DNA from: Streptomyces sp. SLBN-118
GTDB taxonomy: Bacteria > Actinomycetota > Actinomycetes > Streptomycetales > Streptomycetaceae
Direction of reading: 5' to 3'
Assembly (NCBI RefSeq): GCF_006715635.1
Contig: NZ_VFNP01000001.1
Location: forward strand, 806,001 to 870,000
Length of the DNA stretch: 64,000 nt
Shown: positions 1,916-45,110 of the stretch, piece by piece
Numbering within the stretch: the stretch's first letter is position 1
How the letters are laid out: each line of letters opens with the position of its first letter
The notes under the pieces: model-generated
The model's input: the letters and a program-made list of their open reading frames with translations, nothing else
Told to the model about the DNA's origin: nothing
Databases searched by the model: none
Position numbers and translations under genes: made by a program

Positions 1916-2127
1916 GAGGCACTCTGTCCGTCGTCCGGGCGAGCCGGGGGCGATCACCCTGTCGGTCGGGAGGCGCATCCTAGGGGCTGATCATCGCTCG
2001 CGTCGCAGTTCCGGCATGTCCGTCGGCATCCTGCACACGACAAGTAGCGTCATCGTCGCAATCCGTTGGCAGCCGCAGGTGCGAGCTGCCGTCCACCTAT
2101 GGAGTCTGACGAGGAGTGAGCGCTGAC

Positions 2128-2502
2128 GTGGTGAGTTTGGAGACCTCTCTCAAGGAAGCGATGACATCGATCGAGGGCAGTCTCGGAGTTGCCCTCGTGG
2201 ACTACACCAGCGGGATGGCGCTGGGTACTCTCGGGGGCGGGAAGGACCTCGATCTGTCCGTCGCGGCGGCCGGCAACACCGATGTGATCAGGGCGAAGAC
2301 GCGCACCATGGAGCAACTCGGCCTCAAGGACGAGATCGAGGACGTGCTGATCACCCTGGGCGACCAGTACCACCTCATCCGCCTGCTCAAGGGTCGTTCC
2401 GGCAACGGACTCTTCCTCTACCTCGTGCTCGACAAGGCCAAGTCGAACCTGGCCATGGCCCGTCACCGGCTCAAGCGCATCGAGTCAGAGCTCGAGATCT
2501 AG
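2128..2502 (+). CDS. Roadblock/LC7-like domain protein
   Basis: A 124-residue single-domain protein. The alternation of an N-terminal amphipathic helix (LETSLKEAMTSIEG), beta strands (GVALVDYTSGMALGTLG), a long helix (TDVIRAKTRTMEQLGL) and two further strands (IEDVLITLGDQYHLIRLLKG and LFLYLVLDK) matches the roadblock/LC7 fold, which in bacteria usually binds small GTPases of the MglA/CvnD type. Start choice: GAGGAG at 2111-2116 favours GTG 2128 (or 2131) over GTG 2116, which overlaps the binding site. Unlike conservon roadblock proteins it stands alone here, with no GTPase beside it, so its partner is unknown. Confidence 0.6.
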   Translation: MVSLETSLKEAMTSIEGSLGVALVDYTSGMALGTLGGGKDLDLSVAAAGNTDVIRAKTRTMEQLGLKDEIEDVLITLGDQYHLIRLLKGRSGNGLFLYLVLDKAKSNLAMARHRLKRIESELEI

Positions 2503-2536
2503 GCACCATCGGTCTCCCCGCCTTCGTCTGCCCACG

Positions 2537-2556
2537 ACTTGAAGATTTCTTCAAGT
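2537..2556. promoter_or_regulatory. Palindromic operator upstream of ArsR gene
   Basis: ACTTGAAGATTTCTTCAAGT: perfect 9-bp arms around a TT centre, AT-rich in a GC-rich setting, 143 nt before the ArsR-type gene. ArsR/SmtB repressors bind such 12-2-12-like palindromes and often autoregulate, so this is the natural candidate operator. No convincing -35/-10 pair was found beside it. Confidence 0.55.
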
Positions 2557-2698
2557 AGCCACATCCCGATGCGTTGAACCCCCTGGGAGTGCGGCACCAG
2601 GAGGCGGGAGGATCAGACCCTGCACTGCATGGCCTCCGGGCGGCAGCAGCGGAGGCCTCAGCACACGGCAGGCCGTCGAACACAGCAGGAGCGTTCTC

Positions 2699-3037
2699 AT
2701 GCAGGTACCGCTGTACCAGGCCAAGGCGGAGTTCTTCCGCATGCTCGGACACCCAGTCCGCATTCGCGTGCTGGAGCTGCTGCAGAACGGCCCCGTGCCC
2801 GTGCGAGACCTGCTTGCCGAGATCGAGATCGAGCCGTCGAACCTGTCCCAGCAGCTCGCGGTGCTGCGCCGCTCCGGAATTGTCGTGTCCATCCGGGACG
2901 GCGCCACCGTCAGTTACGCCCTGGCCGGTGGAGACGTCGCCGAGCTGCTCCGCGCGGCTCGCCGTATCCTCACCGAACTCATCGTCGGTCAGGGCGAATT
3001 GCTGGCCGAGCTGCGGCAGGCCGACGTGAGTCGATGA
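2699..3037 (+). CDS. ArsR/SmtB-family transcriptional regulator
   Basis: A 112-residue winged-helix protein. Domain order: N-terminal helix (YQAKAEFFRMLGHPVRIRVLELL, the standard ArsR signature), helix-turn-helix (VRDLLAEIEIEPSNLSQQLAVL), beta-wing (GIVVSIRDGATVSYALAG) and a C-terminal dimerisation helix. It has no cysteine and only one histidine, so classical thiol metal-sensing sites are absent. ATG 2699 has AGGAGC 7 nt upstream. From memory, this subgroup in Streptomyces usually sits beside a SulP-type anion transporter. None is present here: the gene is followed by a terminator and about 480 bp without a gene. It may act only on itself through the palindrome at 2537-2556 or on a distant target. 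Confidence 0.85.
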   Translation: MQVPLYQAKAEFFRMLGHPVRIRVLELLQNGPVPVRDLLAEIEIEPSNLSQQLAVLRRSGIVVSIRDGATVSYALAGGDVAELLRAARRILTELIVGQGELLAELRQADVSR

Positions 3038-3578: not shown

Positions 3579-5195
3579 ATGAACACATGGTCGGTCCCCG
3601 GGTATACAGAGACCCGGGAACTGGGCTCCGGAGGCAGTGGGCGTGTCGTCCTGGCCGTCCACGACGCGACCGGTGTGCCGGTGGCCGTCAAATACCTCAA
3701 CGAGCGGATGCGTAGCGATTCCGCTTTCGTACAGGACTTCCGGGCGGAGGCACGCCTGCTCGGCGATCTCGACTCGCCGTACGTCGTCGGGCTGTACGAG
3801 TACGTGGAGGCTCCGCAGGGCGCCGCCATCGTGATGGAACTGGTCGACGGCGTCGCCCTGCGCGCCCTGCTCCGACGGGAGGGAGCCACCGGTCCCGAAG
3901 CGGCGCTGGTGGTCCTGAAGGGCTCGCTGCTGGGCCTGGCGGCCGCGCACCGGGCAGGTGTCGTGCACCGCGACTACAAGCCGGAGAACGTCCTGGTCGC
4001 GGCAGACGGCTCGTCCAAGCTGGTCGACTTCGGTATCGCGGCGGGGCGGGGCAGCACACCGGGCGTCGCGGGCACTCCCGCCTACATGGCGCCGGAGCAG
4101 TGGAACGGGGAGCCCGCCTCACCGGCCGCCGACGTCTATGCGGCGACCGCGACCTTCTACGAGTGCCTGACCGGCCGCAAGCCGTACACCGGCGAGAACT
4201 TCGCCGAGCTCGCGCTGCAGCACATCGACGCACCGGTTCCCGACGAGGACGCGCCGGAGCCGGTGCGCCCGCTCATCCGGCGCGGGATGGCCAAGGAGCC
4301 ACGCAAGCGGCCCGAGAACGCGGAGGCGTTCGTCGCCGAGCTCGAAGAGATCGCGGGCGCGGCGTACGGCCCGGACTGGGAGGAGAAGGGTCAGCGCAAG
4401 CTCGCCGCTCTCGCCGCGCTCCTGCCGCTGCTCTTCCCCTCGGCCGCGGGCCAGTCCGCGGGAACAACCGCGTTCGCCACGACGGCTGTGACCAGCGGCT
4501 GGCGCCGCATCTTCAAGCCCGGCCTGCGGGGAATACTGACGGGTGCCGCGGCCGTGCTGCTGGCCATCGCGGTCGCCGTCGCCGCGCGTGCGGGCGGGGA
4601 CGGTCCCACGCGGACGACGGCTCATGCCGTCGCCACCACGAGCGCGCGGCCGGGCGTGAGCGGCGCCCCGCCCGTCTGGCCCTCCGCCTCCGCGAGCCCG
4701 TCCCCCTCTGCCAGTGCCTCGGTCTCCGACTCGCCTTCCGCCGGTGCGAGTACGACGTCCGCGGCACCGACACCTGGGGCGACTCTGCCCACCACCACCG
4801 CACCGTCGCCGTCGCCGTCTCTCTCCGCTCCGACCACGGAGCCCAGCCCCTCCCCTCCCAGCACGCCACCCGTAGCCGTGAAGTCGGTGTCGGTCACGAG
4901 CTTGCGGCAGGTCGGTCCCACCAGTGGTACCGCGTCGATCGACGTCACCACGGACGGGACCGGTCCGGTGACCGTCGTCATCTCGTGGTTCACCAGCGAC
5001 GTGAAGGGCGACCTGGGGACGCCGGACGGCTCGCAGACCTTCGTACGGAGCGGAGCGACGCAGTACACGATCGCTCTTGACCACACCTTCCAGGGGCAGG
5101 GCTGCTACTGGGGTGTTCGGGCGACGACGAGCCCGGCTGCCGCGAACGGCAGTTCCTCGCAGCAGATCTGGATCCGGCGGTGCATAATCACATGA
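3579..5195 (+). CDS. Transmembrane Ser/Thr protein kinase with extracellular beta domain
   Basis: A 538-residue Hanks-type (PknB-like) kinase. Residues 9-265 form the kinase domain: glycine loop GSGGSGRV (16-23), ATP-binding Lys38 (VAVKYL), catalytic loop HRDYKPENVLV, DFGIA, and GTPAYMAPEQ at the activation-segment end, so it looks active. A juxtamembrane region follows, then one TM helix at about residues 311-333 and a long Pro/Ser/Thr-rich linker (about 340-425). A C-terminal domain of about 100 residues starts AVKSVSV and ends in Cys. That last domain recurs in the next gene and in a pseudogene at 44.7 kb. ATG 3579 follows a G-rich binding site; upstream in-frame codons are non-conserved. 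The stop overlaps the next start (ATGA), so the two are translationally coupled. Likely role: sensing at the envelope and phosphorylating cytoplasmic partners. Confidence 0.92.
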   Translation: MNTWSVPGYTETRELGSGGSGRVVLAVHDATGVPVAVKYLNERMRSDSAFVQDFRAEARLLGDLDSPYVVGLYEYVEAPQGAAIVMELVDGVALRALLRREGATGPEAALVVLKGSLLGLAAAHRAGVVHRDYKPENVLVAADGSSKLVDFGIAAGRGSTPGVAGTPAYMAPEQWNGEPASPAADVYAATATFYECLTGRKPYTGENFAELALQHIDAPVPDEDAPEPVRPLIRRGMAKEPRKRPENAEAFVAELEEIAGAAYGPDWEEKGQRKLAALAALLPLLFPSAAGQSAGTTAFATTAVTSGWRRIFKPGLRGILTGAAAVLLAIAVAVAARAGGDGPTRTTAHAVATTSARPGVSGAPPVWPSASASPSPSASASVSDSPSAGASTTSAAPTPGATLPTTTAPSPSPSLSAPTTEPSPSPPSTPPVAVKSVSVTSLRQVGPTSGTASIDVTTDGTGPVTVVISWFTSDVKGDLGTPDGSQTFVRSGATQYTIALDHTFQGQGCYWGVRATTSPAAANGSSSQQIWIRRCIIT

Positions 5196-6046
5196 ACGAT
5201 CCTCGCGTCCCCTACGGCCCGCACGACCAGGTACCCGACGTGGACAAGGCGGTCGAGGCCTCCGAGAGCGACGGGTACAGCGCGACCGCGCTGGGCAGTC
5301 ACTGGTTCGAACGCCCCGAGGCACAGCCTGAGCCCGAAACGGCCACATTGGTCCAAGGCGTGCCCGACACAGCCACATTGGTCCAAGGCGAGCCCGGCAC
5401 GGCCACCGTGATCCAGGACCCGCCCGACACGGCCACGCTGATCGAGGACGGGCCCGACGCTGCCACCCAGCTCAGGGAGGAGCCACCGGCGAGCGTGGCT
5501 CCCGACCGGGTGGAGGGCGATGTCCTCCGTTTCGGCCCGGGAGTCACCGCAGCGGTCCTCCAGCGCAATGGCGGCCACAACACCACTGCCGAGATCTGGC
5601 ACGGCACGCTTCCCGGACAGCCCGCCGGCCCGGCGCAGCCCCCCGCGCGCCGCCGGTCGGGACTGCGCCGCTACGCCCTGGCGGGCACGGTGCTGCTTGC
5701 GGTGCTGGCCTTCCTGGCCTGGCAGCGCTACGGGCCCGCACTGGCCGTGAAGAGCGTCACGGTCCAGACCACGGGGCAGGCTCTCGGCTGCGACAGCACG
5801 GCCGACATCGTGGGCGCCCTGTCGACCAATGGACGGCCCGGCACCGTGACATATCGCTGGGAACGCAGCGACGGCACCACATCGGGCCTTCTCCGGGAGA
5901 AGCTGACGCGCGGCCAGAAGCAGGCACGTCTGCATCTGCTGTGGACCTTCCAAGGAAAGGGCGAATACCGGGCGGCCGCGGTCCTGCGCATCGTCTCGCC
6001 CACTGGGGACACCGCCACGACGCGTTTCAGCTACCACTGCGCCTGA
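5192..6046 (+). CDS. Single-TM protein with TAT-repeat cytoplasmic arm and the kinase-type sensor domain
   Basis: A 284-residue protein of no named family. Residues 1-155 are acidic and probably cytoplasmic, and contain five imperfect 9-10-residue repeats (TATLVQG, TATLVQG, TATVIQD, TATLIED, AATQLRE; about residues 49-93). A TM helix follows at about 160-180, then a C-terminal extracytoplasmic domain (AVKSVTV ... TYRWERSDG ... LLWTFQGKGEY ... FSYHC). This domain aligns with the C-terminus of the preceding kinase, including AVKSV-S/T-V, the TFQG-x-G motif and the terminal Cys. ATG 5192 overlaps the kinase stop by 4 nt. Inference: it shares a ligand or dimerises with the kinase outside and offers its threonine repeats as phosphorylation sites inside. 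Confidence 0.75.
   Translation: MNDPRVPYGPHDQVPDVDKAVEASESDGYSATALGSHWFERPEAQPEPETATLVQGVPDTATLVQGEPGTATVIQDPPDTATLIEDGPDAATQLREEPPASVAPDRVEGDVLRFGPGVTAAVLQRNGGHNTTAEIWHGTLPGQPAGPAQPPARRRSGLRRYALAGTVLLAVLAFLAWQRYGPALAVKSVTVQTTGQALGCDSTADIVGALSTNGRPGTVTYRWERSDGTTSGLLREKLTRGQKQARLHLLWTFQGKGEYRAAAVLRIVSPTGDTATTRFSYHCA
5336..5475 (+). repeat. Five imperfect ~30-bp tandem repeats (coding)
   Basis: Units built on ACGGCCACATTGGTCCAAGG. The first two are nearly identical over about 30 bp; the later three are more diverged but keep the TAT-(L/V)-x-(Q/E) coding pattern. They lie in the cytoplasmic arm of the kinase-coupled protein. Confidence 0.8.
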
Positions 6047-44725: not shown

Positions 44726-45110
44726 GTGCTCGGCATGGAGACTCTCCGCGCTCTGTGGCCGGCCGACGCACCGGCACCCCTCCGCCGTCGCCGACGGCGG
44801 GCCTGGTTCGGGGCGGCAGTGGTCGTGTCAGCCGTCGCCGTCGCCGTCGCTCTGTCGCTGCTCCTGCGGCCGGCGGCAGGCCCGACCGTCACCGCCGCCG
44901 AAGTGCACGTCCCCACCCAGCGATTGCACTGCGGGCAGACCGCCGAACTGGTGGGCGTCCTGACCACCGACGGTCGGGTCGGCCCATGACGTACCGGTGG
45001 CTTCGCCGTGACGGTCATGACTCCGGCGAGCTGAGCCGCACGGCGCGCCGCGGGGACCGCGAGGTCACCGTCCACCTTCGGTGGACGGTGACCTCGCGGT
45101 CCCCGGCGCC
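44726..45110 (+). pseudogene. Broken membrane protein with the kinase-associated extracellular domain
   Basis: The first frame gives a short basic N-terminus, one TM helix (FGAAVVVSAVAVAVALSLLL) and the start of a domain (LHCGQTAELVGVLTTDGRVGP). A one-base shift at about 44984 leads to TYRWLRRDGHDSGEL, then REVTVHLRWT. Joined, this aligns with the C-terminal domain of the protein at 5192-6046 (CDSTADIVGALSTNGR, TYRWERSDGTTSG, LLWTF). The rest of the domain is missing: coding ends inside a perfect palindrome at 45051-45105. So it is a third, dead copy of the sensor domain. Confidence 0.7.
45042..45110. repeat. Long near-perfect palindrome (26-bp arms, 3-nt loop)
   Basis: Arms 45051-45076 and 45080-45105 are perfectly complementary (beginning CGGGGACCGCGAGGTCACCG) around TTC. 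After a 4-nt bulge on the left, five more pairs form (GGCGC 45042-45046 / GCGCC 45106-45110). The left arm is the natural coding strand of the sensor-domain pseudogene, so the right arm looks like an inverted copy of it. There is no T run, so a terminator role is secondary. Confidence 0.9.

Follow-up and report, generated by a model that had tools for sequence, protein, structure and literature searches.

The closest described system to the locus reported here is the mycobacterial PknB/MviN/FhaA set, in which, according to PMC12599244, an active membrane Ser/Thr kinase is accompanied by a membrane protein with a dead kinase domain, whose phosphorylated tail recruits an FHA protein. An example of FHA recognition is that of pTEAD by Rad53. 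The locus lies in a 64,000-nucleotide stretch of Streptomyces sp. SLBN-118 (contig NZ_VFNP01000001.1, positions 806,001 to 870,000 of the forward strand), hereafter the window, and consists of a gene for a membrane Ser/Thr kinase and an overlapping gene for a membrane protein without a kinase domain, here called the partner. Streptomyces have many membrane Ser/Thr kinases, and few substrates are known for them. The two genes form a unit that recurs across genomes, and the partner appears, with moderate confidence, to be a dedicated co-receptor of the kinase as well as its phosphothreonine-bearing substrate, phosphorylation being suggested by the motifs of its tail.

The pair resembles PknB–MviN–FhaA in some of its forms. 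Partners of a second type (type 2) combine a kinase-like domain that lacks the catalytic Asp with a transmembrane helix and an ectodomain, and in three Streptomyces loci they have an FHA gene as a neighbor. The partner differs from MviN in not being a flippase and in being coupled to its kinase, and the window partner (type 1) differs further in having a threonine-repeat tail and no kinase-like domain. Its model has one helix, taken as the transmembrane segment, unlike the multi-span flippase of MviN proper (ActPs3 family), and no Pfam or NCBIfam family was found in it, hence no dead kinase domain of the MviN–FhaA adaptor kind. Since it has neither the dead kinase domain nor the flippase part, we do not count it as a member of that system. 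The window kinase shares with the PASTA kinases (PknB, Stk1, PrkC) a kinase domain, juxtamembrane threonines, one transmembrane helix and a C-terminal ectodomain, but that ectodomain is of another kind, without PASTA. Eukaryotic receptor kinases with kinase-dead co-receptors likewise pair an active receptor with a related inactive one; beyond the kinase fold this is an analogy only. No description of the pair appeared among the titles and abstracts listed in searches of the open-access literature, and relatives of the partner are mostly listed as hypothetical in databases. The features of the pair, whose membrane topology is predicted, are as follows.

3579 to 5195, forward strand: membrane Ser/Thr kinase, 538 residues (Pfam Pkinase, E 7.2e-45, residues 9-250)
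4461 to 4490, forward strand: kinase juxtamembrane threonine box GTTAFATTAV, residues 295-304 (Thr297 and Thr302 invariant across the 38 kinases of alignment A2)
4530 to 4589, forward strand: predicted kinase transmembrane helix, residues 318-337 (AlphaFold2 helix, local confidence low)
4872 to 5192, forward strand: kinase ectodomain, predicted seven-stranded sandwich (sequence and profile comparison, AlphaFold2)
5192 to 5195, forward strand: ATGA stop/start overlap coupling the two genes (NTGA overlap likewise in 79/79 testable loci)
5192 to 6046, forward strand: partner membrane protein, 284 residues, without kinase domain (open reading frame (ORF) and family scans)
5279 to 5305, forward strand: box 1, SATALGSHW (alignment; pattern in 113/117 type-1 tails)
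5330 to 5466, forward strand: tandem repeat of a 30-bp unit (4.6 copies), read as 10-residue units, for example PDTATLVQGE
5525 to 5545, forward strand: box 2, LRFGPGV (RFGPGV invariant in the 46 rows of alignment A1; also in type-2 and other-family partners)
5588 to 5608, forward strand: box 3, AEIWHGT (alignment)
5660 to 5731, forward strand: predicted partner transmembrane helix, residues 157-180, basic residues N-terminal to the helix (sequence, AlphaFold2)
5741 to 6043, forward strand: partner ectodomain, predicted seven-stranded Ig-like sandwich, C-x2-T ... YRWxRSDG ... C (alignment, AlphaFold2, structural matches)

Conservation of the Coupled Pair

A profile search of named genomes with the partner returned 220 relatives, of which the best 80, all from Streptomyces, were used. 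In 79 of 79 testable loci the kinase gene immediately precedes the partner gene and overlaps it by 4 bp (78 by script, with frame and lack of stops re-checked, and L021 by reading; L046 begins at the partner and is not counted). Of 200 Streptomyces genomes, 53 have the partner; the kinase ectodomain occurs in 50, every one of them among those 53. Kinase and partner adjoin in 49 of the 50, as judged by eye from the listed coordinates, and are split over contigs in the remaining one (G031); three genomes (G066, G079 and G101) have a partner with no match to the kinase ectodomain. Across the family as a whole, 51 of the 121 genomes have the partner, and these belong to 7 of the 17 genera. We selected 20 stretches from other genera, representing 19 of 40 matching genomes, and in 17 of them the kinase precedes the partner in the same orientation; in L116 it is frame-broken, split between two frames. 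The exceptions are L110, which begins at the partner, L121, whose kinase is on the other strand, and L119, which has a truncated partner and no kinase. The coupled pair is strongly conserved, and kinase and partner form a real unit.

The kinase of this unit has the residues expected of an active Hanks-type Ser/Thr kinase (beta3 Lys, HRD Asp and DFG Asp), with Lys38, Asp132, Asn137 and Asp150 all present in the alignment. No PASTA domain was found in it up to E 1 in a Pfam scan, and it scores 204.7 against a cut-off of 450 with the NCBIfam model PknB_PASTA_kin. AlphaFold2 models the kinase domain poorly (mean pLDDT 56.1); the 50 matches listed by Foldseek for the kinase model are kinase entries.

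The Threonine Tail of the Partner

The cytoplasmic tail of type-1 partners has a recurring order, with repeated threonine units between or before box 1 (ATxL[GA]SHW) and box 2 (RFGPGV, 117/120). Box 3 is uneven, its xIW pattern being present in 52/117 type-1 and 8/120 type-2 tails, in 14/16 from other genera and in 9/11 from other families. For these and the following counts, 18 of 20 other-genus loci (L110 and L119 left out; 16 with box 2) and 13 of 18 other-family loci (L148-L152 left out; 11 with box 2) were used. The 10-residue repeat units of the window contain TATLVQ, an instance of a more general pattern of threonine followed by hydrophobic residues, T[VLI]x?[VLIF][GADPQN]. This motif occurs 163 times in 117 type-1 tails, compared with 16.4 +/- 4.2 in shuffled tails, and its serine version is absent (0 vs 10.2 +/- 3.0). 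In 29 type-1 tails left after thinning, the count is 38 vs 3.7 +/- 1.9. The threonine motif is also in excess in type-2 tails (151 vs 36.8), other genera (42 vs 4.1) and other families (30 vs 5.1). A control set, T-rich linkers from the extracellular side of 112 paired kinases, shows no excess (2 vs 2.8 expected).

Leucine at +3 of the threonine is enriched in the tails (log2 2.14, 181 cases), as are acidic residues preceding it. The relevant background is the bacterial Thr-kinase consensus and the FHA preference at +3. The juxtamembrane segment of the kinase has similar motifs, with 18 strict motifs vs 8.5 +/- 2.8, none of the serine version vs 3.9, and a two-threonine pattern in 99 of the 112 regions that could be located among 121 kinases.

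Relationship and Variation of the Ectodomains

The original prediction held that the kinase and the overlapping gene share a C-terminal domain of about 100 residues, and this is borne out. The two align with a BLASTP E of 6e-6 in a single comparison (37% over 83 columns), and their local alignment score of 71, compared with 28.8 +/- 5.3 for shuffled sequences, was reached by none of 2000 shuffles. Out of 121 kinase ectodomains, a profile of the partner ectodomain matches 10, with E values down to 2.2e-6 (4.9e-6 for the window kinase), the reciprocal profile matches 3 of 120 partners, and hhalign relates the two families with a probability of 79.5 (E 1.5e-5). As judged from these comparisons, the family-to-family signal is real but modest. 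AlphaFold2 predicts seven strands in both domains, with block pLDDT of 82-97 for the partner and 84-91, down to 64 at the end, for the kinase. With seven strands and similarity to solved Ig-like domains, the modelled fold is an Ig-like beta sandwich; structural matches include CARDB, PKD and transglutaminase C-terminal domains, among many Ig-like and PKD-like folds. Neither unrelated folds nor different established families emerged, which leaves the shared domain standing.

The domain also has no family name, as had been proposed: neither window ectodomain reaches the cut-off of any Pfam or NCBIfam family, and a PDB sequence search gave 0 matches. It shares the beta-sandwich fold of PKD and bacterial Ig-like domains but has its own signature (C-x2-T...YRWxRSDG...C) and falls far below the Pfam cut-off for PKD_4 (13.3 vs 27 bits); weak PKD_4 similarity is seen in 7 of 12 broad members, the best E among the 12 being 9.4e-4. 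Searching the window's own genome for further copies of the domain gave two weak matches, L004 (E 0.84) and L005 (E 0.96). The former was discarded, its ORFs looking unrelated.

All four kinases of the loci fetched from another genus, g3 (L103, L106, L112 and L114), have PASTA as their ectodomain instead, by Pfam, and their partners retain the C...RSDG...C domain. Four further other-genus kinases that were scanned (L104, L108, L118 and L122) gave no PASTA and no Pfam ectodomain; by eye, those of L104, L108 and L122 look Ig-like and that of L118 different. These eight were chosen from 18 other-genus loci with a kinase, four of them for PASTA seen by eye, so that 4/8 is not a frequency. The shared ectodomain is thus not essential to the pair.

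Type-2 Partners and an FHA–M50 Neighbor

A second, divergent partner occurs in 5 of the 200 Streptomyces genomes. One of these loci (L090) is a type-1-like pair, three (L092, L093 and L094) have a kinase and a longer partner with an extra N-terminal domain, and L091 has its partner at a contig edge. A protein search with the L094 partner gave 148 relatives among 7996 scored, the best 120 of which make up our type-2 set. The extra domain is not recognized by Pfam, but resembles kinases by hhalign (probability 70.4, E 3.9e-5). It was examined in an alignment of 20 rows, 3 of which are cut at HRD by trimming, that also included kinases from 6 other-family loci. In all 17 countable rows, HRD reads HG[ASTG] (Ala 8, Ser 6, Thr 2, Gly 1), and the Asp of DFG is Glu in 16 of 17. 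Judged by these residues, the kinase-like domain of type-2 partners has lost the catalytic Asp. In ActPs2 pseudokinases, the HRD Asp is replaced by Asn (PMC12599244). Assignment of the type-2 domain to ActPs2 was rejected, since the replacement here is Ala, Ser, Thr or Gly, not Asn. The beta3 Lys column is gapped in all 20 rows; a nearby Arg, the residue looked for at beta3 in ActPs2/DYD, can be picked out by eye (GALRID, GVLRFD).

The ectodomain is found in 30 of 296 genomes of the class. In a second family, the best match was fetched from 11 of 13 matching genomes, and all 11 partners have the kinase-like domain and an adjoining kinase-domain ORF (L135-L138 and L140-L146); catalytic residues are intact in the 5 of these kinases that were checked. 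Among the other loci, L139 has a kinase and a partner without the extra domain, L147 has its kinase after the partner, L148 has it in the opposite orientation, and in L149-L152, where no kinase lies nearby, the ectodomain sits in other multi-domain proteins. The tail of the L139 partner (L139:1249-3693) has many ADATVHLAG-type repeats. A second kinase stands directly before the first in 5 of 10 wider other-family loci (L154, L155, L156, L161 and L162). These double-kinase loci fit an origin of the partner by tandem duplication, and do not show it. The deep fork of the ectodomain tree is weak (79/78), and the tree does not settle the ancestral form of the partner.

Directly upstream of the type-2 kinase, a gene with FHA and PqqD/M50-like parts is present in 3 of 3 Streptomyces loci with that flank (L092-L094; Pfam FHA, 2.4e-14). 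In L094 (2311-4068), as in L092 and L093, FHA is fused to the PqqD-like and M50 parts, the latter site-2-protease-like and below the Pfam cut-off. The FHA–PqqD–M50 protein is possibly a phosphothreonine-triggered membrane protease.

A Proposed Role of the Partner as Co-Receptor and Substrate

We propose that the coupled genes would yield one receptor unit, in which a PknB-like membrane kinase, itself active, is joined by a dedicated partner in the membrane that serves as co-receptor outside the cell and as substrate or adaptor inside. When active, the kinase would phosphorylate threonines of the partner tail in box 1 and in the repeated T-hydrophobic-x-hydrophobic units, the membrane-proximal RFGPGV would keep the tail bound to the kinase, and phosphothreonine-binding proteins, FHA proteins for example, may dock on the phosphorylated tail. 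At the level of sequence, the pairing, the tail motifs, the preference for threonine, the type-2 relatives that look like dead kinases and the FHA gene beside Streptomyces type-2 kinases all point this way. Several observations weigh on the other side. The serine version of the motif is absent in type 1 only, and is at chance in type 2 (21 vs 22.3), other genera (2 vs 2.4) and other families (3 vs 3.4). Twenty-four of the 117 type-1 tails lack the threonine motif, and box 1 is present in only 6/16 other-genus and 6/11 other-family tails that have box 2. The motif was defined after the tails had been viewed, so that its excess is partly built in, independent evidence coming from the counts in linkers, juxtamembrane segments and the other groups; the shuffles, moreover, ignore shared descent, an effect that thinning lessens but does not remove. 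FHA-like ORFs are near only 9 of 80 type-1 loci, upstream and on the opposite strand (a single FHA query was used, and may undercount), and none of the 10 wider other-family loci has the FHA gene. With 3/3 Streptomyces type-2 loci set against 0/10 of these, FHA–M50 as a general part of the system was rejected.

The related ectodomains and strict pairing would also be expected if both proteins bound the same extracellular ligand, with the partner a co-receptor or decoy whose cytoplasmic part hardly matters, much as was first suggested for this locus. Such an arrangement seems unlikely. A co-receptor role remains plausible, but the "same signal" is unsupported because the g3 kinases carry PASTA while the partner ectodomain stays, and a decoy would need no conserved cytoplasmic part, yet the tail motifs are strongly conserved. 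The partner could also conceivably be an inhibitor or scaffold in the membrane, keeping the kinase inactive until release, with threonine motifs that dock other proteins rather than being substrates of this kinase. The near invariance of box 2 suits this idea, and a type-2 kinase-like domain without catalytic Asp could pair with an active kinase domain; the type-1 preference for threonine over serine (163 vs 0), however, is easier to explain by phosphothreonine recognition, and similar motifs lie on the kinase's own juxtamembrane segment, making an inhibitor or scaffold improbable in our estimation. Very doubtful is the idea that the ectodomains are ordinary Ig-like stalks, alike by common fold, with a coupling unrelated to the shared domain. 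Many Ig-like and PKD-like folds do match the model, and the partner profile reaches just 10 of 121 kinase ectodomains, but the similarity of the window pair lies above all 2000 shuffles and profile cross-matches extend to 2.2e-6.

Relic and Neighboring Genes

Two further features lie about 39 kb downstream of the pair.

44735 to 45105, forward strand: relic of a type-2 partner without an adjoining kinase; juxtamembrane segment, transmembrane helix and a portion of the ectodomain remain, spread over two frames
45051 to 45105, no strand assigned: perfect inverted repeat at the relic end, 26-bp arms, 3-base loop

The relic matches partner-type domains in two frames, at 44735-44986 and about 44968-45090. 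It had been read as a dead copy of the gene at 5192. That it carries a partner-type domain is correct; its parentage is not, the best match to type-2 partners reaching 219 summed bits (73% over 85 residues) vs at most 78 bits for the 120 type-1 partners. By these scores the pseudogene derives from a type-2 partner. Queries of its own genome with the type-2 kinase ectodomain found only the window kinase (E 7.5e-9) and two matches above 0.4, and the FHA–M50 query matched only over its first 186 residues, the FHA part, with no FHA–M50 gene found. The inverted repeat is the longest in the window for loops up to 8 bases (next-longest arms, 14 bp), and its left arm is partner coding sequence; it resembles either a scar left by snap-back copying or a hairpin of the terminator type. 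The truncated partner of L119, in another genus, is a possible second instance of decay in the partner family.

Small roadblock-like and ArsR-like genes (names given by eye) stand upstream of the window kinase, at 2116-3037, and were not found beside the pair elsewhere. Across the 80 loci, most of which include ~7 kb of flank in either direction (a dozen or so have less), the roadblock-like, ArsR-like, 964, 6162 and 8889 neighbor genes had no match at E 1e-8; the response regulator neighbor was matched in 3 and the histidine kinase in 1 (L036, 29%). The flanking genes were therefore rejected as part of the unit, the window's other neighbors not being kept. A promoter and terminator scan found nothing.

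Implications

A tentative generalization is that several actinomycete families use a receptor kinase coupled to a kinase-descended co-receptor that retains a dead kinase domain in some lineages and has an expandable phosphothreonine array in its place in others. The number of DNA repeats, here 30-bp units, might then tune recruitment of FHA-type readers, and the co-receptor could remain constant as its kinase swaps one ectodomain, Ig-like or PASTA, for another. In a coupled partner with arrays resembling phosphorylation sites, the genome itself points to a candidate substrate. If confirmed, the pair would offer a clean two-gene system for studying bacterial receptor-kinase signalling, would place a further kinase/dead-kinase receptor pair next to that of mycobacterial MviN, and would give a name to a protein family now mostly listed as hypothetical.

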